From NCBI GenBank assembly GCA_012837615.1, contig DUQX01000102.1, forward strand, positions 1 through 54,519: a stretch of 54,519 bases of DNA, given 5' to 3'. The stretch comes from Bacillota bacterium (GTDB taxonomy: Bacteria > Bacillota > Dethiobacteria > DTU022 > UBA8154). The notes beneath the pieces are model-generated. The model saw only the letters and a list, made by a program, of their open reading frames with translations. It was not told where the DNA came from and searched no databases. Positions 3,332 to 45,610 of the stretch are shown here, one piece after another; position 1 is the first letter of the stretch; every line of letters starts with the position of its first letter. Position numbers and translations under genes: made by a program.

Positions 3332-4234
3332 ATGAATACACTTTTAAATCAGGAAAACGACAGGTTGAGAAATGTACTTCTTTATTCTCTATTGGATGAT
3401 AAAATGAGGGAGCATATCGGCTTAAAAGGTGTCAGCCAATTTTTCCATTCGGGCGAAGGGTGGTATTTTTGGCTTCTTCAAAGAAAGGGAGTATACGAAA
3501 TAGAGTTTTTGGGAAGGGAAGAAAAAAATAGCCGCGTCTCCATTGAATTTTCCCTAAAATATTATCCTCACCCCGATGAGGCGGTATTTGCTGATTACTC
3601 GATCTTTGAGCAGCTTATGCGTTTACAATACCCTTTCGAGCAAAACTGTCCTACACCCCAGTGCAGGGAAAATTTGAGCCCCCATTTCTTTTATATCGGG
3701 AAAATTAATCTTCTATGGTATGATGAAGCTGTGCTGCTTTCTGTCTGTTCGCAGAATAGGTGGATAGAGTATCTGAAACAGGGATTAAAGATTAAAAACA
3801 ACGAGGGAGTGCTCCAAGAAGTGCTAGGGGCAGGTGAAAAAGATAGAAACATTCCGGGTTGGGACCTGTCTTTTGATTTTTATAACTGTTTAATGAAAGC
3901 TTTTTGTTTTGCTTATAGATCTGCACCCCAATTGATAAGCCTTAAGCATTCCCCGGGGAAAGTAGATTATATTGACGAAACGAAAAAAGTGAGCAAGGAA
4001 GCTGGCGGGGATATTTATAAAATAAGGTTAATAGCGGTAATTCCCTTTAGCCAGGGTCTTTCTGCTCCAGGGAAAATATCCGAAGCGGCAAAGGTGTTAC
4101 CAGAAAAGGGGGAAATAATATATCAGGAGGGTAAAAAGGATTTTCTTCATCTGTATCCGAATTTCTTTGATAAAGATTGGTGGCGGATGGCTGAAAGGGG
4201 TAGGGAAATATTGCCCGAGGGTTTGCGGGTATAA
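3332..4234 (+). CDS. Hypothetical protein
   Basis: ATG 3332 with GGGGGG RBS; earlier in-frame start would run through the hairpin. Confidence 0.65.
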   Translation: MNTLLNQENDRLRNVLLYSLLDDKMREHIGLKGVSQFFHSGEGWYFWLLQRKGVYEIEFLGREEKNSRVSIEFSLKYYPHPDEAVFADYSIFEQLMRLQYPFEQNCPTPQCRENLSPHFFYIGKINLLWYDEAVLLSVCSQNRWIEYLKQGLKIKNNEGVLQEVLGAGEKDRNIPGWDLSFDFYNCLMKAFCFAYRSAPQLISLKHSPGKVDYIDETKKVSKEAGGDIYKIRLIAVIPFSQGLSAPGKISEAAKVLPEKGEIIYQEGKKDFLHLYPNFFDKDWWRMAERGREILPEGLRV

Positions 4235-7620: not shown

Positions 7621-7644
7621 CGTTATGCTGCCTTGGGTATAACG
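7621..7644 (+). promoter_or_regulatory. ModE-like palindromic operator 1 upstream of modA
   Basis: CGTTATGC-tgccttgg-GTATAACG. Confidence 0.55.
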
Positions 7645-7677: not shown

Positions 7678-7701
7678 CGTTATGCAATATAGAGCATAAC
7701 A
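7678..7701 (+). promoter_or_regulatory. ModE-like palindromic operator 2 upstream of modA
   Basis: CGTTATGC-aatataga-GCATAACa. Confidence 0.55.
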
Positions 7702-8014
7702 ACACAACAAAAGAGAACTAAAGAACAGGGAAAATATTTAAACTAAGGGATAACGGGCAGTAAAGGGAAAAGTGAAATATCCAAAGGTAAAAAGAATATC
7801 ATCGGATGAAGGGGATATCATCTGAGGGAAGATGCGAAGATCCTGCTCAATTCGGAAATAAGCAGCTTTTTTGATCGAAACAGGAGGGGATGATCTATAG
7901 ATAAAGTGTACCTAGAATAGTCCTATGGGCTATAGTTTTCTAGTTTGGAAAATCTGCAGGGAGGGGTTAAAAAACACGGCTACATACACAGAAAGAAGAA
8001 GGAGGAATATTCAA

Positions 8015-8842
8015 GTGAACAGGAAACATTTATTCAGATGGATTACGGGCATGGTTTTAATTGCAGTCATGGTTTTGGCGTTGGCCGGGTGCGCATCCCC
8101 TGGGGAAGATCGGGAAGCGCTTTCCGAAGAAGGGACCCCGGAATCGGAGCCGGTTACTTTAAACCTGTCGGTAGCCGCCAGCCTTACCGATGCCATGTTG
8201 GAAATACAGCAGCTCTATGCAACAGAATGTCCACATATAAGCTTGGAATTTAACTTTGGCTCTTCAGGTTCCCTGCAGCAGCAGATTGAGCAGGGTGCTC
8301 CTACGGATATTTTTATGTCGGCCGCTACCAAACAGATGGACGAACTACAGGAACAAGATTTACTACTTGCTGAAACCCGCCTTGATTTGTTAGAAAACGA
8401 ATTGGTCCTCGTTGTCCCGCGGGGTTATACGGGTATAGCTAATTTTACTGACTTAATCAAGGACGAGATTGCCTTAGTTTCGATTGGCGATCCCGCTTCT
8501 GTACCGGCCGGCAAGTATGCACAGGAAACTTTAATAGCATTGAAAATATGGGAACAGCTTGAGTCCAAGCTGCTTTTGGCCAAAGACGTCCGCCAGGTGC
8601 TGGCTTATGTTGAAAACGAAGAGGTGCAGGTGGGTGCAGTTTATCGTACTGATGCAAATATCTCCGATAAAGTAGAGGTTGCGGCAGCCGCCCCTGAAGG
8701 TTCACACTCCCCGCTGATTTATCCAGTAGCGGTGATTAAAGATAGCCCACACCCAGAAGAAGCAAAAGCGCTACTTGCCTTTCTTGCAAATGAGCAATCC
8801 CAGGCGGTATTTGAAAAGTATGGATTTAAGGCTATGCATTAA
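8015..8842 (+). CDS. modA: Molybdate ABC transporter substrate-binding lipoprotein
   Basis: Lipobox LALAGC, ModA-like SVAASLTDAMLEIQ and FNFGSSGSLQQQIEQGAPTDIFMSA; start trimmed to GTG after AGGAGG. Confidence 0.92.
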   Translation: MNRKHLFRWITGMVLIAVMVLALAGCASPGEDREALSEEGTPESEPVTLNLSVAASLTDAMLEIQQLYATECPHISLEFNFGSSGSLQQQIEQGAPTDIFMSAATKQMDELQEQDLLLAETRLDLLENELVLVVPRGYTGIANFTDLIKDEIALVSIGDPASVPAGKYAQETLIALKIWEQLESKLLLAKDVRQVLAYVENEEVQVGAVYRTDANISDKVEVAAAAPEGSHSPLIYPVAVIKDSPHPEEAKALLAFLANEQSQAVFEKYGFKAMH

Positions 8843-8941: not shown

Positions 8942-9619
8942 ATGCCTGAAATGGATCTTGTCCCCGTATGGATTTCATTGAAAACTGCCGCTCTTTCGAC
9001 CGTAATTACTTTTTTTCTCGGCTGTGCTGCTGCCCGTTGGTTAGCCGGTTATCAGGGGAAGGCCAAAAGCCTCCTGGACGGCCTTTTTACCCTTCCCCTG
9101 GTATTACCCCCAACAGTGCTGGGGTTTGGTTTACTATTGTTGTTTGGAAAAAACGGCCCCTTAGGTAAGTTGCTGCTGAAACTGGGGACCACGGTTATCT
9201 TTTCCTGGTGGGCAACGGTTATTGCTGCCGTTGTCGTGGCTTTCCCGTTAATGTACCGGACAGCGCGGGGGGCGTTTGAGCAGATTGAACCCAATATTGA
9301 AAATGCCGCCCGCACGTTGGGTGCTTCTGAATGGGATATTTTTTGGCGGGTTACTTTGCCTTTGGCCTGGCCAGGCATTATGGCAGGGATCATCCTTTCT
9401 TTTGCCCGTTCTTTAGGGGAATTTGGGGCCACATTGATGATTGCCGGCAATATTCCCGGCAGAACACAGACTATTCCTTTGGCTATTTACTTTGCGGTGG
9501 CTGCCGGTGACAATGACAGGGCCTTGGCCTGGGTTGCCATTATTATGCTCATCTCCATGCTTTCAATCCTGGCACTTAATTACTGGCAGCGTTATGGAAA
9601 AAATTATGCTAATCATTAG
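8942..9619 (+). CDS. modB: Molybdate ABC transporter permease
   Basis: EAA loop (ENAARTLGASEWDIFWRVTLPLAWPG), synteny with modA/modC. Confidence 0.92.
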   Translation: MPEMDLVPVWISLKTAALSTVITFFLGCAAARWLAGYQGKAKSLLDGLFTLPLVLPPTVLGFGLLLLFGKNGPLGKLLLKLGTTVIFSWWATVIAAVVVAFPLMYRTARGAFEQIEPNIENAARTLGASEWDIFWRVTLPLAWPGIMAGIILSFARSLGEFGATLMIAGNIPGRTQTIPLAIYFAVAAGDNDRALAWVAIIMLISMLSILALNYWQRYGKNYANH

Positions 9620-9863
9620 CGCATCAGCGCATCCGAGCCCGCCGGGAGGAAACCTACCCGGGGCGATTTCGGGACCGTATGGGGACATAGCGGGAAATTG
9701 GAGGGGCGGCTATAGGAGCGGCACGCGTATGGACAACCAGCATTTTACATTACGACAAATTAAAAGCGTTTTAACATGCCAGCTTGTGAAACAATATTGA
9801 CAATATGTGCTGGGAATATGTAAGTTGCAAACATCAGACTCAGACCCGGAGGAGGTAGTGCCT

Positions 9864-11006
9864 TTGTTAGAAGTCAAAATCAAAAAGACATTTCCCGGCT
9901 TTAAATTGACAGTTGCTTTTGCCATAAACCAAGAAATATTGTCTTTAGTCGGCCCTTCCGGTAGTGGAAAAAGCCTGACCTTACAATGTATTTCCGGTTT
10001 AATGAACCCAGACGAGGGTTATCTTCAAGTGAACGGCAAAGTGCTGCTCGACACGGCAGCCGGCATAAACGTACCACCGCAAAAGCGAAAAGTGGGCTAC
10101 GTATTCCAAAACTATGCGCTTTTTCCCCACCTGACTGTCTTTGAAAATATCGCCTTTGGTCTTGCTGCCTGGGAGCGACGGAAGGTTGTGGCCAGGGTTG
10201 CTTATCTGCTGGAAAAAATGCGTTTAAGCGACTATAAAGATCGCTATCCTCACCAGCTTTCGGGGGGGCAGCAGCAGAGGGTAGCCCTGGCCCGGGCCTT
10301 GGCGCCGGAACCGGAAATTTTACTGCTGGACGAACCTTTTTCTGCCCTCGATACCCAGGTGAGGGGGGAGTTGGAGAGAGAAATTTTAGCTCTACACCAA
10401 TTTTATCGGGGCCATATTATTTTTGTTTCCCATAATTTAGATGAAGCCTACCGTTTGGGTTCTCAGATTGCAGTATACGAAGCAGGGCAGATCTTACAGT
10501 TAGGGTACAAAAAAAAGCTGATTAATGCTCCGGCCAACCAAACCGTTGCCAAATTAACAGGTACCAGGAACTTGGTCGAGGGAATAATTCGTAATATAAA
10601 TGGCGCAAAAGCAGAAGTAATGGTGCCGGCCTGGCAGGAGAAGCTGCAGGTCAACATGCTTCACCCTGAAAAATATTATCCAAACCAAAAAGTCATTATC
10701 GGGATCCGGCCAGAATATATCCGGATTAGCAATTGTTTTCCAGAAAGTGTTTCCCGACCAAATGGCCCGGGCAACCGCTCCATACAGGCGATCCATGAAT
10801 CGCCTGCACAACTATTGGCCGCACAGGTGGTGGAAGCGGTCGATGGGGTGACTTCTTATACTTACCGCTTGCGGTTAAAAAACGGTTCCGCCCAAGAATT
10901 TCACTTGGAAGCGGATGTTTCCAAGCTGACAGCCCCTTGGATACCTGCCGGAAAAACCTGTTACCTGCATTTGCCTTCCGAAAGGGTATTCCTCATCACT
11001 CCGTAA
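9864..11006 (+). CDS. modC: Molybdate ABC transporter ATP-binding protein
   Basis: Walker A GPSGSGKS, LSGGQQQR signature, C-terminal TOBE-like region; TTG 9864 after GGAGGAGGT. Confidence 0.9.
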   Translation: MLEVKIKKTFPGFKLTVAFAINQEILSLVGPSGSGKSLTLQCISGLMNPDEGYLQVNGKVLLDTAAGINVPPQKRKVGYVFQNYALFPHLTVFENIAFGLAAWERRKVVARVAYLLEKMRLSDYKDRYPHQLSGGQQQRVALARALAPEPEILLLDEPFSALDTQVRGELEREILALHQFYRGHIIFVSHNLDEAYRLGSQIAVYEAGQILQLGYKKKLINAPANQTVAKLTGTRNLVEGIIRNINGAKAEVMVPAWQEKLQVNMLHPEKYYPNQKVIIGIRPEYIRISNCFPESVSRPNGPGNRSIQAIHESPAQLLAAQVVEAVDGVTSYTYRLRLKNGSAQEFHLEADVSKLTAPWIPAGKTCYLHLPSERVFLITP

Positions 11007-11658: not shown

Positions 11659-12492
11659 TTGTTTGGGGAGCTGATAAGGGTGAAAAAATTACCATCAAAA
11701 GTATTGATCAGAGGTGCCGGAGACCTGGCCAGTGGGACGGCTCACCGCCTATGGCAGGCTGGATTTGATATCGTTATGCTGGAGTTGCCGCAACCGCTTG
11801 TTGTAAGGCGCAGCGTTTCTTTTGCCTCTGCCGTTTATGAGGGTTCTGCGTCTATTGAAGGGGTTGAAGCAAGATGCTGCCGGGGGATTGAAGAAGCCGA
11901 TCGAATAGGGGATTTGCTGAGAAAACGAATTATACCTGTATTTATCGATCCGGATGGTAAGTTGATACATATTTATCAACCTGATGTTCTGGTTGATGCC
12001 ATCCTGGCCAAAAGAAATACGGGCACTTCTATTGGCGATGCCCCTGTTGTTATAGGGCTGGGCCCCGGTTTTACCGCCGGGGAGGATGTCCACGCCGTTA
12101 TAGAAACCAAGCGGGGCCATGATTTGGGCAGGGTAATCTATGACGGATCTGCCGCTCCAAACACCGGTGTGCCCGGCGATATTGCAGGCTATGCATTGGA
12201 AAGGGTGCTGCGGGCACCTGCCGGGGGGATATTCAACACCTCGAAAAAAATAGGCGATCTTGTTGAGAAGGGCGAAACGGTTGCTGCTGTAAACGATGTT
12301 CCTGTTAAGGCGGCTATAAGCGGCGTTATTCGCGGTTTGCTTTATCCGGGCCTGGAGGTAAAGCCGGGGTATAAAATTGGAGATATCGATCCCCGCGGGG
12401 AGGAAATAGATGTTTATACCATTTCTGATAAAGCTAGAGCTATAGGGGGAGGCGTACTGGAAGCAATTTTATATTTGTCGCAAAACAAATAG
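11659..12492 (+). CDS. yqeB: YqeB/EF2563-type selenium-dependent molybdenum hydroxylase system protein
   Basis: VLIRGAGDLASGTAHRLWQAGF, GLGPGFTAGEDVHAVIET, biotinyl-lipoyl-like C-terminus. Confidence 0.85.
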   Translation: MFGELIRVKKLPSKVLIRGAGDLASGTAHRLWQAGFDIVMLELPQPLVVRRSVSFASAVYEGSASIEGVEARCCRGIEEADRIGDLLRKRIIPVFIDPDGKLIHIYQPDVLVDAILAKRNTGTSIGDAPVVIGLGPGFTAGEDVHAVIETKRGHDLGRVIYDGSAAPNTGVPGDIAGYALERVLRAPAGGIFNTSKKIGDLVEKGETVAAVNDVPVKAAISGVIRGLLYPGLEVKPGYKIGDIDPRGEEIDVYTISDKARAIGGGVLEAILYLSQNK

Positions 12493-12691: not shown

Positions 12692-13495
12692 TTGATGGAA
12701 AAAGAAATCTTTGAACGCCTTAGCCAGATGGCAGAGAACGCGGAGCCTGCCGCGCTTGTTACGATTATCGAATCAACGGGGTCGGTTCCGGGCAAAACCG
12801 GCTTTAAAATGCTGGTGGATCTCGAGGGGAATACCCTGGGTACCGTTGGCGGCGGTCCAATTGAGGCGACAGCGATCAGGGAAGCCGTAGAGGCCATTAA
12901 AAAAAATGCCTCCCAAATAAGGAAGTACAGGCTGGATAATAAAGAAGCCGGTGGAGTGGGTATGATCTGCGGCGGGGAGGTCACTGTCTTCATTGATGTA
13001 ATTGTCCCTCCGGAATCGCTTTTAATTATCGGCGCCGGGCATATTGCCCAGCCCCTTGCAGCCATGGCGAAAATTGTTGGTTTTCATGTAACCGTAATGG
13101 ATGACAGGGAGGAATTTTGCAACAGCGAGAGATTCCCGACGGCGGACAAGTGCCTGGTTGGGGAGATACCGGAGCTGCTACAGGAATGGAAGATAACCGG
13201 GAATACATACATTACCATCATAACGCGCGGGCACGAGTACGATGAAATAGCCCTGGAAAAAACCCTCCTTTCTGGAGCCTTCTACCTGGGGATGATCGGC
13301 AGCCAGACCAAAGTTAAAAGAATTTATAGCAATCTAATTGAAAAAGGCTTTTCCGAAAAAGATCTGGAGAAAGTTCATGCCCCTATTGGCCTGGATATCA
13401 AAGCTATTACCGCAGAAGAGATCGCTGTCAGTATCCTGGCACAGTTAATATTTGTAAAAAACAGGGCAAAAGGTTTTAAGGGTTTTACAGGGTAA
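12692..13495 (+). CDS. XdhC/CoxI-family molybdenum hydroxylase maturation protein
   Basis: LVTIIESTGSVPGKTGFKMLV, GAGHIAQPLAAMA, RGHEYDEIALEKTL, IGLDIKAITAEEIAVSILAQL. Confidence 0.9.
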   Translation: MMEKEIFERLSQMAENAEPAALVTIIESTGSVPGKTGFKMLVDLEGNTLGTVGGGPIEATAIREAVEAIKKNASQIRKYRLDNKEAGGVGMICGGEVTVFIDVIVPPESLLIIGAGHIAQPLAAMAKIVGFHVTVMDDREEFCNSERFPTADKCLVGEIPELLQEWKITGNTYITIITRGHEYDEIALEKTLLSGAFYLGMIGSQTKVKRIYSNLIEKGFSEKDLEKVHAPIGLDIKAITAEEIAVSILAQLIFVKNRAKGFKGFTG

Positions 13496-13851: not shown

Positions 13852-13875
13852 CGTTATTCTTATACAAGTATAACG
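13852..13875 (+). promoter_or_regulatory. ModE-like operator 3, upstream of the NTPase-MTase-ECF operon
   Basis: CGTTATTC-ttatacaa-GTATAACG. Confidence 0.55.
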
Positions 13876-13879
13876 ATGT

Positions 13880-13903
13880 CGTTATACATATATAGGTATA
13901 ACG
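13880..13903 (+). promoter_or_regulatory. ModE-like operator 4, upstream of the NTPase-MTase-ECF operon
   Basis: CGTTATAC-atatatag-GTATAACG, perfect 8-bp arms. Confidence 0.6.
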
Positions 13904-14001
13904 GCGAAGAATGATGCATAAAGATAATATACAGCTCGATTGAGCTGTTCTTACGATTGGGCTGAACTATTGAAATTAAAGACCGGAGCGTTGATGCTGC
14001 A

Positions 14002-14670
14002 ATGAAGAAGAACTTGTTTATAGAAGGAAATATCCGTCTAGGTAAATCTACACTTATTCGAGAAATCCTGCTTCCCTTTTTTCCAAAAGTGGGAGGAATT
14101 TTTGTGCAGAGAATATTTATTGGGGAGCGCTATGTCGCGTTTAAATTAAATCCGGTAAGAGAAGCGGAGGATTACCGGCTGAATAAATACGTAAACAGTT
14201 TAAGCGGGATGGACAACCTTTTTCTTTATAGCGATGTCAGGGGTAAATGGCAGGCCAAAAAGGAAATTTTTGAAAGTGGCGGGGTTGCATACATAAAGGA
14301 AAGTATCGAAGATAATAAAAAATTAATACTGCTGGATGAGTTGGGTGGGGTGGAGCTTAATTGCCCCGCTTTTATGGAGACTGTTATGACGGCATTAAAC
14401 AGCAAGATACCCGTGCTCGGTGTTTTAAAATCTTCGCGAAATGTGGGGAAATTAAATGCAGCTCTGACATCCAACCGGGCGGGTAATTGTGCGAATAGCG
14501 TTCGCGCTGTTTCGGCAGAAAAAAAAGTAAGGGGGGATAGCGGGGCCTGTTTCCTACAGCGTATCAAATCCCATCCGGAATTTGAACTTTTACGCGTTAC
14601 CGAAAACAATATTCCGGAAATCAAAAGCAAAGTAAAAAAATTTGTGGAGAGGGCCTTATCGCGAGCGTGA
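14002..14670 (+). CDS. THEP1-like nucleoside-triphosphatase
   Basis: P-loop EGNIRLGKST, LILLDELGGVEL Walker B, size consistent with NTPase_1 family. Confidence 0.75.
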   Translation: MKKNLFIEGNIRLGKSTLIREILLPFFPKVGGIFVQRIFIGERYVAFKLNPVREAEDYRLNKYVNSLSGMDNLFLYSDVRGKWQAKKEIFESGGVAYIKESIEDNKKLILLDELGGVELNCPAFMETVMTALNSKIPVLGVLKSSRNVGKLNAALTSNRAGNCANSVRAVSAEKKVRGDSGACFLQRIKSHPEFELLRVTENNIPEIKSKVKKFVERALSRA

Positions 14671-15431
14671 TGAAAGAATGGACGGACGAACAAATATTAA
14701 ATTATTACCTGGGTATCGAGCATAGCGATTATCCGTGGGTGTTCTGGGAGGCCATGCGGCCGCATCTTGGCGGTTGTGCATCTTTGATTGATATCGGCAG
14801 CGGCCCCGGAGCATTTGCACTGGCGGCTGCCCGGGATGGTTTTCATGTTCAGGCGGTAGATATAAGCAAAAAAAACCTCGATGCCCTGCATGGGAAAATA
14901 AAAGAGCTGGGGTTGAAGAAGATAAAGCTTATTTATGGCGATTGGCTGGAGGCGGAGGTGGAAAAATGCGATGTGGCTGTCTGTGCATACAGTTTTGGCG
15001 GCACAATCGGCACTGCCCAGGGGATTAACAAAATTTTTGAGATTGCCGGAAAGGCCGCTTTCTTTATTTCTCCCTATGCAAGCGTTCAAACCGATTTTTT
15101 AACCGGGGAGCTTTATATAAAAATGGGAATTGAACCCCCTTCTTTCAGCGGGGACTACCGCGATCTTTTGCGGTTGATACAAAATCAAGGGAGGGAAGTT
15201 GAGTGTAAAATATTCGAATATGATTTTGGCATGCCCCTGGCAAGTAAGGATGGGCTCGACAACTGCGTCCTTTACCTGGGAGAAAAACTGGGGCTGCCCC
15301 CTACAGATCTTTTTAAGGAGCATCTTCAAAAAATTATCACCATGCGAAACGGCCTTTACTGGGTGCCCAACCCCAGGAAAAGCGCCATGATAATCTGGAA
15401 AGGGAGAAGTGAAACAAATGACAATGATTAA
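14667..15431 (+). CDS. Class I SAM-dependent methyltransferase
   Basis: LIDIGSGPGAFALAAARDGFHVQAVDIS motif I; start overlaps the previous stop. Confidence 0.85.
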   Translation: MMKEWTDEQILNYYLGIEHSDYPWVFWEAMRPHLGGCASLIDIGSGPGAFALAAARDGFHVQAVDISKKNLDALHGKIKELGLKKIKLIYGDWLEAEVEKCDVAVCAYSFGGTIGTAQGINKIFEIAGKAAFFISPYASVQTDFLTGELYIKMGIEPPSFSGDYRDLLRLIQNQGREVECKIFEYDFGMPLASKDGLDNCVLYLGEKLGLPPTDLFKEHLQKIITMRNGLYWVPNPRKSAMIIWKGRSETNDND

Positions 15432-15999
15432 CAGATTTTTTATAAGGTTTACTACCTTTGACTTCGTAATTATTGCACTTTTATCAGCTTGCGGGATTGC
15501 TACAAAACCTTTTGTTAGGTTTTTGGCCCAGATATTTACGGGAACCCTGGTCCCCATCGGGACGGTAGCCGGTATCTTTTATATGCTCTGGATTGTCCTG
15601 GCCTGCGCTATTGTAAAAAAAAGGGGAACGGCTATTTTAGTCGGCATAGTTCAATCAGTTTTGGTAGTGGTATTTGACATGCTCGGCAACCGCGGTTTGG
15701 CTAACCTTCTGGTTTACGTCGTCCCCGGAGTCACCCTGGAGCTGGCGATGCTGGCCTTCCCGCATTATGTTTCTACGCTTTTCAGTTCGTTTACCGCAGG
15801 TGCAGTGTGTAACGCTACCGGTTCGTTTATCGTTAGCGTGGTTTTTATGCGCCTGGCCTTTATTCCCATGCTGGTTTCATTGATAGTATCAGGCATATTT
15901 GGAGGAATTGGGGGAATTGTGGGCTATAAGCTATACGATGTGGTTAACAGTTTAAAGGGTGCGGCAAGGGAATACAGCGATCAAGAACCGCAGGGTTAA
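15409..15999 (+). CDS. ECF transporter S component, substrate unknown
   Basis: About 196 aa, multiple TM segments, between the MTase and ECF ATPases. Confidence 0.75.
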   Translation: MKQMTMINRFFIRFTTFDFVIIALLSACGIATKPFVRFLAQIFTGTLVPIGTVAGIFYMLWIVLACAIVKKRGTAILVGIVQSVLVVVFDMLGNRGLANLLVYVVPGVTLELAMLAFPHYVSTLFSSFTAGAVCNATGSFIVSVVFMRLAFIPMLVSLIVSGIFGGIGGIVGYKLYDVVNSLKGAAREYSDQEPQG

Positions 16000-16035
16000 T
16001 AATATAAAAATAATGGTGGTGTATAAGTAAAAAGT

Positions 16036-16776
16036 ATGGAAAGCATGGAGCACCTGAAGGTAGAGCATTTATGGTACACATATGAAGCAGGGCGCCAGCC
16101 GGTTTTAAAAGATATTACCTTTAAGCTTCTTCAAGGGGAAGCTCTGGGGGTTATTGGGCTGAACGGCAGCGGCAAGACCACTTTGAGTTACTGCCTCTGC
16201 GGTATTATTCCCCATTATCTGAAGGGAACGCTGGAAGGGCGGGTGCTGGTTAACGGGAAAGATACCAGAGAGACCCCTTTGTACCAATTGACCACAGAAA
16301 TAGGAATTGTGCTGCAGGATCCGGGGATCCAGCTGCTGATGCCTACGGTGGAGGATGATATTGCCTTTGCCCTGGAGAACCACAACCTTCCACGTGAAGA
16401 AATCAGGGAGCGCATTTACAGGACCATGGAAATGGTGGGTATTACCAAGCTTAAAGATGAAAATCCCAATAACTTATCGGGAGGCGAGAAACAGCTGGTC
16501 GCCCTGGCCACTGTACTGGCTTTAAATCCATCCATTATTATTTTTGATGAATCGCTTTCAATGCTTGATGAGCTGGCGGCGCAAAGGATTATAGCAGTCA
16601 TGCAGAGGTTAAAAGATAAAGGAACCACCCAGGTTATTATCGACCATACTATGAAAGGCTTCGAAGTGTACGACAAAATATTTATTCTGGAAGAAGGTCG
16701 GATTATCTACCGGGGTTCAAAAGATTTTGCCCTGCAGAATAAAGAGTTGTTGAGAGAACACAGGTTTTTATTCTAG
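16036..16776 (+). CDS. ECF transporter ATP-binding protein (first)
   Basis: Walker A GLNGSGKT, LSGGEKQ signature, ECF-type QDPGIQLLMPTVEDDIAF. Confidence 0.93.
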   Translation: MESMEHLKVEHLWYTYEAGRQPVLKDITFKLLQGEALGVIGLNGSGKTTLSYCLCGIIPHYLKGTLEGRVLVNGKDTRETPLYQLTTEIGIVLQDPGIQLLMPTVEDDIAFALENHNLPREEIRERIYRTMEMVGITKLKDENPNNLSGGEKQLVALATVLALNPSIIIFDESLSMLDELAAQRIIAVMQRLKDKGTTQVIIDHTMKGFEVYDKIFILEEGRIIYRGSKDFALQNKELLREHRFLF

Positions 16777-16905
16777 CACCAATTATTGCTAAAGTAGCTG
16801 CAAAGCTTGTCGTATATTTTCGTTAATTAGACAAAAAAATTCAAACCGGAGCAATGGGAAGAAAATTTTGGTAGACGCCCGGTTTCGGGGGTTTCCATCC
16901 AAATT

Positions 16906-17616
16906 ATGCAAAGTAATTGTAAAGCCGGGGGTGTTGTGGTGACTTTCATTTCACTGCAGGAAGTGAGTTATACTTACAACGGGCGGAAAGAGGCCGCAGT
17001 AAAAAATGTTTCCCTTAGTATTGCAGAGAGGGAAAAGATATCTCTTACCGGTTTAAACGGGAGCGGCAAATCTACGCTGGCCAAGCTGATCCTCGGCCTT
17101 CTCAAGCCTCAGACGGGAAAGATCGTTCTTGACGGCCTCCCGCTGGGAAAATATTCCCTTGCAAAGATTGGGGAAAAAGTGGGTTATGTTGTTCAAAATC
17201 CCAGCCAGATGCTTTTTAACACGAGCGTCTTTAACGAAATCGCCTTTGGTCTGAAATGGAAGGGCAAGGGAAAAGATGAGATCTTCCACTTTTGCAAAAA
17301 ATACCTGGAATTTTTTGAACTCTGGCACCTGCGGGACGAGCTTCCGTTTAATCTGAGCGAGGGCCAGAAACAGCTGGTCGTGATCTGCGCCGTATTGGCC
17401 CTGCAGCCCCGTTTTCTGATCCTGGATGAACCGACGAAGAGCATTGATACTTTTCGGAAAAAAAGGTTAATAGATATTTTACAGGAAATCTGGCACCTCG
17501 GTACGGGAGTTATGGTTATCAGCCACGATATGGAATTTTTGACAGCTTTTGACGGCAGAAGGATACACATGGAAAAAGGTGAGGTTGTAGAAGATGCAGG
17601 TAGATATCAGAACTAA
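16906..17616 (+). CDS. ECF transporter ATP-binding protein (second); true start probably slightly downstream
   Basis: Walker A GLNGSGKS, QNPSQMLFNTSVFNEIAFGL, LSEGQKQ variant signature. Confidence 0.92.
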   Translation: MQSNCKAGGVVVTFISLQEVSYTYNGRKEAAVKNVSLSIAEREKISLTGLNGSGKSTLAKLILGLLKPQTGKIVLDGLPLGKYSLAKIGEKVGYVVQNPSQMLFNTSVFNEIAFGLKWKGKGKDEIFHFCKKYLEFFELWHLRDELPFNLSEGQKQLVVICAVLALQPRFLILDEPTKSIDTFRKKRLIDILQEIWHLGTGVMVISHDMEFLTAFDGRRIHMEKGEVVEDAGRYQN

Positions 17617-18319
17617 GCTCCTGATAGTGGCAATCTTTTCCGCTTTAGCCCTGGTATACCAGAATCCCTTGATCCTGGGTATTATCCTACTTTTAAACCT
17701 GTTGACCGTTATACTCTTCAGGGTGCCGCTGCAAATTTTTCGCGAGTTTAAAGGTTTTATCTATATGTATGCCGTATTAATGGTTATCCAGAGCTTTTTT
17801 GTGAGGGACGGGGAACCGCTGCTGCAGCTGGGTAATATTTATCTTTTAACAACTGATGGGGTTCTTTACGGGATATCCATTATGCTGCGCTTTTTTATTC
17901 TGGCCTGTTCGGGGATAATATTATTAAACTGTAACACATCGGAGCTAATCCTGGCGTTGGTCAAGCTGCGTATTCCTTACGAGATTGTCTTTATGATTCA
18001 GGTGGGGATCAGGTTTATCCCGGTATTCATGGGCGAGCTGCAAAATATCTTTCACGGTATACAGTTGCGGGGGGTAGACCTGCGCCGGGTGTATAAAAGA
18101 AAAGTGCTCAAAGTATATGTCAGCATTTTTTCTCCGGTTATCTACAGCGTCTTGCAGAAAGCTGAAAAGCTGTCGATACTGTTGGAACTTCGCGGCTTTC
18201 GCAAATCACCCGCCAGGACCTATTACAGGGATATCTCCCTGAGCAGAATCGATTATGTTGTAATGACCCTTTCTTTAATTGTTACTGTAGCCCTGATCTA
18301 TGCGGTAAGAAACCTGTAG
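17594..18319 (+). CDS. ECF transporter T component
   Basis: EcfT/CbiQ-type membrane protein, LRG motifs (QLRGVDLRR, ELRGFRKS). Confidence 0.9.
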   Translation: MQVDIRTKLLIVAIFSALALVYQNPLILGIILLLNLLTVILFRVPLQIFREFKGFIYMYAVLMVIQSFFVRDGEPLLQLGNIYLLTTDGVLYGISIMLRFFILACSGIILLNCNTSELILALVKLRIPYEIVFMIQVGIRFIPVFMGELQNIFHGIQLRGVDLRRVYKRKVLKVYVSIFSPVIYSVLQKAEKLSILLELRGFRKSPARTYYRDISLSRIDYVVMTLSLIVTVALIYAVRNL

Positions 18320-22772: not shown

Positions 22773-22807
22773 TTTTTTTCTCATAATTTATGCCAATAAA
22801 TTTTGGT

Positions 22808-23076
22808 CGTGCTAGATGGGGAGGTAGCGGTGCCCTGAACCTGCAACCCGCTATAGCAGGATTGAATTCCTACCCCCGGCCCTTAGCTTTACAGGGTCTG
22901 CCTCCGGTAAGTGGTGAAGAAGCCTTGGTCCTGTGCGGCATAAGCCCATGAACCCCGTCAGGTCCGGGAGGAAGCAGCGGTAAGTGGTGACTTGTGGGTG
23001 CCACAGGGGCGCTGGGGCTGAGCAAACTGCTGGGGTTCCGCCTGGGGAGCGGGGTCAAAGGTAGGTGCACGACCAT
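22808..23076 (+). ncRNA. ffs: Signal recognition particle RNA, large Bacillus type
   Basis: Alu-type start GTGCTAGATGGGGAGGTAGCGGTGCCCTG and domain IV CCGTCAGGTCCGGGAGGAAGCAGCGG, upstream of dnaX. Confidence 0.93.
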
Positions 23077-45340: not shown

Positions 45341-45419
45341 ATCTTAGCAGGGGGAAGAATCAATAAATCTTCGGTGGACAGGGAGTTAATAATGTGATAT
45401 TCTTAGGAAAAGTGAATAT

Positions 45420-45610
45420 ATTGCATCTGGGTGTCAAAGACTTAATAGGGAAGCCGGTGAAATTCCGGCGTGGTCCCGCCACTGTAAGCGGCGAGTTCTC
45501 CCGCAAAAGCCACTGGTCCGAGAGGGACTGGGAAGGTTGGGGGAAAACGTTGACCCGTAAGCCAGGAGACCTGCCCAAATGCGAGTTCGGCCCCCTTCGG
45601 GTAAAAGGGC
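45420..45610 (+). ncRNA. Cobalamin riboswitch
   Basis: AATAGGGAAGCCGGTGAAATTCCGGCGTGGTCCCGCCACTGTAAGCGG B12 box; GTAAGCCAGGAGACCTGCC. Confidence 0.95.

Follow-up and report, generated by a model that had tools for sequence, protein, structure and literature searches.

Why should a complete energy-coupling factor (ECF) transporter operon, headed by genes for a nucleoside-triphosphatase (NTPase) and a methyltransferase, carry what look like the operators of a molybdate transporter, and what would such a transporter move? The question is raised by contig DUQX01000102.1 of a Bacillota bacterium (assembly GCA_012837615.1), positions 1 to 54,519 of which form the window analysed here. A first-pass annotation, made from the letters alone, had seen paired palindromes upstream of both modA and the ECF operon and had proposed that one molybdenum- or tungsten-responsive (Mo/W) regulator controls the two. 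Our analysis places the ECF operon, with high confidence, in a molybdenum regulon, and we favour with moderate confidence a role as a ModE-repressed importer of a molybdopterin-type pterin, perhaps metal-bound. The link to molybdenum is strong; from the evidence set out below we infer repression, the direction of transport, the exact substrate and the enzyme reactions.

Predicted ModE-type operators and their conservation

The window holds four CGTTAT-N12-ATAACG palindromes, three of them perfect and one with a single mismatch (Table 1); a pattern scan returned all four where the first-pass annotation had placed them, with the mismatch in the box at 7678–7701 that it had marked. Searched with the longer pattern CGTTATNC-N8-GNATAACG, allowing up to two mismatches, the window gives exactly four matches, against a mean of 0.13 in shuffled sequence and no shuffle that reached four. 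The arms had been read as ModE-type, and this agrees with both references: the Escherichia coli K-12 modA operator, CGTTATATTGTCGCCTACATAACG, is identical to the window boxes in arms and spacing and conforms to the published ModE consensus, ATCGNTATATA-N6-TATATANCGAT (PMC545781). An RNA hairpin in place of a DNA operator was considered and rejected, since mismatches are frequent at arm positions 7–8 but not in the outer arms, which remain perfect, and since no riboswitch was called near the boxes. The window boxes are very probably ModE-type operators. Elsewhere in the genome (2.1 Mb, 151 contigs) there is a single extra perfect-arm site, C131:341–364 (locus L018), which lies at a contig edge where no target gene is recognisable. 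A MOT1-like molybdate carrier is encoded on the same contig at 3374–4492.

Perfect boxes also stand upstream of the NTPase gene in orthologous operons of genomes G054 (two boxes), G045, G068, G014, G032 and G057, and one-mismatch boxes precede the ECF operon orthologues of G030, L183 and L186. In G069 a perfect box lies upstream of an NTPase–methyltransferase–ATPase operon in which no match to the substrate-specific (S) component was found. Conservation in relatives had been proposed as a check on the shared-control idea, and almost every close orthologue of the ECF operon has indeed retained a box upstream. Box end and start codon are separated by 24–33 bases in the six cleanly measurable operons outside the window's genus, and at L037 and L183 about 10 bases lie between the end of a sigma-70-like promoter and the box downstream of it; these positions point to repression. 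The window's own ECF-operon boxes lie at least 98 bases from the start codon, and a promoter scan beside the window's boxes recognised none.

G068 has, in a row, a ModE-type gene, a Tup-like ATP-binding cassette (ABC) system, a MOT1-like molybdate carrier, YqeB, a box and an ECF operon without the methyltransferase, and G053 has modABC one gene downstream of a related ECF operon.

A box regulon across the order and its candidate regulators

A survey of 71 genomes of the same order found 55 perfect boxes against about one for the reversed pattern, which answers the concern that such boxes might be scattered at random. Spacing is selective too: over spacings of 4–24 there are 190 perfect matches in total, 55 of them at spacing 12, while the 20 other spacings share the remaining 135 (about 7 each). 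One-mismatch sites were rejected as a signal because the reversed control is equally frequent, and they are treated as background.

Neighbouring genes were read for each of the 51 perfect sites outside the window's genome. A molybdopterin-binding protein, XdhC or xanthine-dehydrogenase-type gene lies downstream of 21, modA or tupA of 10, an NTPase–ECF operon of 8, a type II (FecCD/Peripla_BP_2) importer of 4 and a gene for a DUF364 protein of 1; two sites are at contig edges and five have no molybdenum gene nearby. The first three classes thus account for 39/51 sites, or 31/51 when the 8 NTPase–ECF sites are set aside.

The DUF364 (putative heavy-metal chelation) gene stands with a gene for an NMT1-like binding protein (L149:5080–5911, G060:C87), and at L144:6134–6552 (G056:C138) three perfect boxes are flanked by a divergent NTPase orthologue on one side and a FecCD-type importer on the other. 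A perfect box precedes a Peripla_BP_2/FecCD importer at L142:5416–6625 (G051:C66), in a genome where no ModE was detected. A DVU_1553/1555/1556-type cluster (coenzyme A ligase, C-GCAxxG-C-C protein, methyltransferase) adjoins a boxed Mo hydroxylase gene at L127:11919–16237 (G016:C82).

No regulator gene had been seen in the window, correctly so; three genes with a ModE-type helix-turn-helix (HTH) domain lie elsewhere in the genome (E-values 1.8e-20 to 2.2e-16, all falling short of the TIGR00637 curated cut-off). One, on contig C66, joins the HTH to a periplasmic-binding-protein-like domain, and two consist of the HTH alone, adjoining ModD and FmdE on C25 and a YqeC–MobA-like fusion on C123. 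Molybdate-binding TOBE/Mop domains were found on none of the three, and the sole TOBE protein found in the genome is a separate Mop of 81 amino acids. Because none reaches the cut-off and none carries TOBE domains, we call them ModE-type and not canonical ModE. In its CGTTAT-N12-ATAACG layout and its modABC, Mo enzyme and maturation targets, the regulon resembles those of E. coli and Geobacter sulfurreducens; it differs in having regulators without fused TOBE domains, one with the periplasmic-binding-protein-like domain instead, and in including an ECF transporter among its targets.

Regulator and box occur together. A ModE-type HTH gene is present in 34 of 38 genomes with a perfect box versus 12 of 33 without one (Fisher p = 3.7e-6, an optimistic value since related genomes are not independent), and the coordinates put about 17 of the 55 boxes no more than 5 kb from such a gene. 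The idea that one particular ModE paralogue recognises the boxes was rejected, as the ECF carriers have differing subtypes and the boxes could be assigned to none of them.

A candidate pterin transporter

An alignment of the S component, scanned against 84,980 named genomes, gave 80 loci with a uniform layout: an optional gene for a flavin mononucleotide (FMN)-binding protein, then a PF00174 protein, S, a phosphodiesterase, a tethered PF00174 domain, two ATPases (A), the transmembrane (T) component, MobB and a kinase. Of these loci, 64 include PF00174-type proteins, 45 MobB, 38 the phosphodiesterase and 34 the kinase; the NTPase and the methyltransferase are each found in 14. At L323:6080–7675 (G026:C63) a calcineurin-like phosphoesterase with a weak C-terminal PF00174 match is encoded directly upstream of S and downstream of ModE-type, Tup-like and MOT1-like genes.

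The Mo/W, or molybdenum cofactor (Moco), riboswitch RF01055 was found with Rfam in 21 of the 25 remoter loci tested, and in 19 of the 21 it precedes the genes that lead into S and has the same orientation; the same search of the window and of ten close loci returned none. The cultivable Alkaliphilus peptidifermentans is among the carriers of the riboswitch version. According to the available text of PMC2408646, this riboswitch controls molybdate transport and Moco genes, and that text mentions no ECF target; in the loci studied here it precedes relatives of the window's ECF operon, whereas the window's own clade uses ModE boxes instead. With the riboswitch on remote members and ModE boxes on close ones, a single transporter family is linked to molybdenum through two types of regulator that are unrelated to each other. 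Together with the order-wide regulon and the conserved boxes, this sustains the original proposal that modA and the ECF operon share Mo/W-responsive control.

The case for a pterin begins with the tethered PF00174 domain of the relatives. Its predicted structure (predicted local distance difference test score, 87) matches best the PruR pterin-binding proteins (7KOS, 7KOM, 7RKB) and next the sulfite oxidases, and its conserved D-G-Y motif aligns with N-D-Y of Vibrio PruR. The pterin-contact motif of PruR is N-x-Y, and the alignment fits the residues that a review of PruR places at the pterin site (PMC13259868). Model and motif (D/N-x-Y) are thus held in common with PruR of the PruR–DcpA pathway; the difference is that PruR acts in Proteobacterial c-di-GMP signalling, whereas the domain is found here in the company of an ECF transporter and MobB, and the window's operon is without it. 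A second ECF operon in the window's genome encodes a PF00174 protein, a PF09819 S protein with a PF00174 domain attached to it as a fusion, a double ATPase and a T component. It is split over contigs C52 and C25, which, judging from the T component of G070, probably join at a contig break; beyond the break, C25 carries a kinase, ModD, FmdE and a ModE-type HTH gene. S is genetically tied to pterin-binding-type proteins in relatives and in the genome's second S protein, and not in the window's operon.

The NTPase of the window models as a THEP1 fold and shares fold and sequence with the THEP1 nucleoside-triphosphatases; unlike them, it and its relatives stand beside a methyltransferase, or are fused to one, in molybdenum contexts. 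NTPase_1 and methyltransferase domains are joined in one protein in G016 (L127:4442–5695), between MoeA-like and XdhC-like genes, and in G083 (L301:721–1911), between a ModE-type gene and a xanthine-dehydrogenase-type iron–sulfur subunit, the neighbours being read from sequence in both cases. Because such fusions occur in Mo-hydroxylase clusters, the NTPase and METHYLTRANSFERASE pair probably acts as a unit in Mo metabolism, and the coupling of the two enzymes that had been suggested gains in weight.

In the model that we prefer, a molybdenum-sensing ModE-type repressor encoded elsewhere in the genome would, when molybdenum is sufficient, bind over the transcription start or a short way past it and keep modABC and the ECF operon off; when molybdenum is short, both would be on. 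Through the ECF transporter the cell would then take up a molybdopterin-type pterin, which might be dephospho-molybdopterin, a degradation product or the whole cofactor with its metal, and so supplement its supply of molybdenum or cofactor. We assume import since almost every ECF transporter studied so far works in that direction. In the relatives, the pterin would be captured outside the cell by sulfite-oxidase/PruR-fold proteins tethered to the surface, a phosphodiesterase or nucleotide pyrophosphatase would trim off nucleotide or phosphate, and MobB and the kinase would rebuild the cofactor after import. In the window's version the THEP1-type NTPase and the methyltransferase may process the imported molecule as one functional unit.

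Several observations weigh against this reading. The operon in the window's close group is without the tethered pterin-binding protein, phosphodiesterase, MobB and kinase, and the case for a pterin is borrowed from relatives with about 30–44% identity and from the second S protein. Full Moco is reportedly too large for the PruR pocket (PMC13259868), and a comparison of the S-component profile with the PDB found no solved-structure relative by sequence. On the side of regulation, the ECF orthologue in G027 (L039) has no box, and four box-carrying genomes, including the ECF carrier G014, have no ModE match. The window's genome also has MoaC and a divergent MoaE. Since it keeps both, the system would be an accessory one; Moco auxotrophy with obligate salvage was rejected, given these two genes and the presence of MoaC in nearly all 71 genomes.

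The alternative that survives best is direct uptake of molybdate, tungstate or a small Mo/W chelate by the transporter, in the manner of CbiMNQO-type metal systems, with NTPase and methyltransferase aiding release or use. The boxes common to the ECF operon and modABC would suit it, as would the three boxes between the NTPase orthologue and a FecCD-type importer in G056 and the proximity of modABC in G053. We nevertheless regard it as unlikely: the genome already has modABC and a MOT1-like carrier, and an oxyanion needs no sulfite-oxidase/PruR-fold proteins, phosphodiesterase, MobB, kinase or S fusion. Among the substrates first put forward (an oxyanion, a pterin precursor or a chelate), the relatives' PruR-fold partners, MobB, phosphodiesterase and kinase thus favour the pterin and make the oxyanion less likely.

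Export of pterin or Moco to supply extracellular sulfite-oxidase-fold proteins, on the model of the ECF proteins that have been proposed to supply flavins for extracellular electron transfer in Gram-positive bacteria, is less probable. It would run counter to the import seen in nearly all studied ECF transporters, the window's operon has no extracellular client, and the tethered domains, in which no conserved cysteine was found, look like binders and not like enzymes awaiting their cofactor. What speaks for export is the presence of FMN-binding lipoproteins and surface PF00174 proteins in the same operon in many relatives, and the published remark that it is not known how pterins get to the periplasm (PMC13259868).

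Slightly less probable again is import of a vitamin precursor (hydroxymethylpyrimidine- or thiamin-like) or of a Mo-hydroxylase substrate (purine, nicotinate), molybdenum co-regulation arising only via the consuming enzyme. The boxes do also precede xanthine-dehydrogenase-type operons, and S matches PF09819, which includes YkoE; the PF09819 S component, two ATPases and a CbiQ-like T component are all features of vitamin-type ECF systems. However, control here is by molybdenum and not thiamin, no THI riboswitch was found in the window or the close loci, the genome's second S is fused to PF00174, and the recurring partners are molybdopterin-type (MobB, PF00174 proteins, the Mo/W riboswitch) and not thiamin or purine genes. 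That the palindromes arose by chance or serve an unrelated regulator, as the five sites without a Mo gene nearby and the four box genomes without a detected ModE might suggest, is highly improbable in the face of their enrichment, spacing, target genes, co-occurrence with ModE and match to the E. coli operator.

The pterin-import reading extends, more tentatively and with a likelihood just short of even, to a widespread ECF family (Bacillota, Cloacimonadota, Heimdallarchaeota) dedicated to Moco-pterin uptake, in which the Mo/W riboswitch or ModE-type operators would be used according to lineage and PruR-like surface proteins would be the pterin catchers. If true, this would be the first identified route of Moco or molybdopterin import in prokaryotes, two unrelated Mo sensors would control one transporter family, and anaerobes could share or scavenge molybdenum cofactor. 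How pterins cross bacterial membranes is described as unknown in a recent review (PMC13259868). Searches of open-access literature, which may miss proposals from subscription journals, turned up no assignment of an ECF transporter to molybdopterin and nothing relevant on ECF transporters with the Moco riboswitch or on THEP1 with molybdenum. The gene set is a defined one: S, T, A, PruR-like domain, MobB, phosphodiesterase, kinase and NTPase–methyltransferase.

The molybdenum island and other features of the window

Domain searches reproduced the gene content first described for modABC and the NTPase/methyltransferase/ECF operon, modC being under its cut-off, and the ECF set is complete, with S, T and two A components together in the operon. 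YqeB and XdhC, which the first-pass annotation had left out, lie between modABC and the ECF operon; because they fill this gap, we treat about 7.6–18.3 kb as one molybdenum island.

Table 1. Predicted operators and genes of the molybdenum island, in window coordinates, and the second ECF operon of the same genome.
Feature	Position	Strand	Basis and remarks
ModE-type operator 1 of modA (predicted), CGTTATGCTGCCTTGGGTATAACG	7621..7644	.	Arms perfect; E. coli modA operator layout
ModE-type operator 2 of modA (predicted)	7678..7701	.	Single arm mismatch
modA, molybdate-binding protein	7925..8842	+	TIGR01256 200.6 bits, cut-off 62.5; listed open reading frame, true start possibly further in
modB, permease	8942..9619	+	TIGR02141 273 bits, cut-off 182.6
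modC-like ATPase	9807..11006	+	TIGR02142 201.6 bits, under cut-off; assignment by position
YqeB, Se-dependent Mo-hydroxylase maturation protein	11659..12492	+	TIGR03309 370 bits
XdhC, Mo-hydroxylase maturation protein	12692..13495	+	PF13478, PF02625
ModE-type operator 1 of ECF operon (predicted)	13852..13875	.	Arms perfect; conserved upstream of orthologous operons
ModE-type operator 2 of ECF operon (predicted)	13880..13903	.	Arms perfect; pair also in sister genome G054 (L036)
THEP1-type P-loop NTPase	14002..14670	+	PF03266 1.7e-15; model closest to THEP1 1YE8 and human NTPase 2I3B
Class I S-adenosylmethionine-dependent methyltransferase	14667..15431	+	PF13649 and others
ECF S component, substrate-specific membrane protein	15421..15999	+	PF09819 9.3e-12
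ECF ATPase 1	16036..16776	+	PF00005; best NCBIfam match ECF_ATPase_1, under cut-off
ECF ATPase 2	16906..17616	+	PF00005; best NCBIfam match ECF_ATPase_1, under cut-off; first ATG, true start possibly further in
ECF T component	17594..18319	+	PF02361 4e-29
Second ECF operon	L308:1-3890 (G000:C52) + L015:14089-18339 (G000:C25)		Two contigs

Two RNA features of the window are unrelated to these findings: a gene for the bacterial large signal recognition particle RNA at 22807–23072 and a cobalamin riboswitch at 45412–45592.

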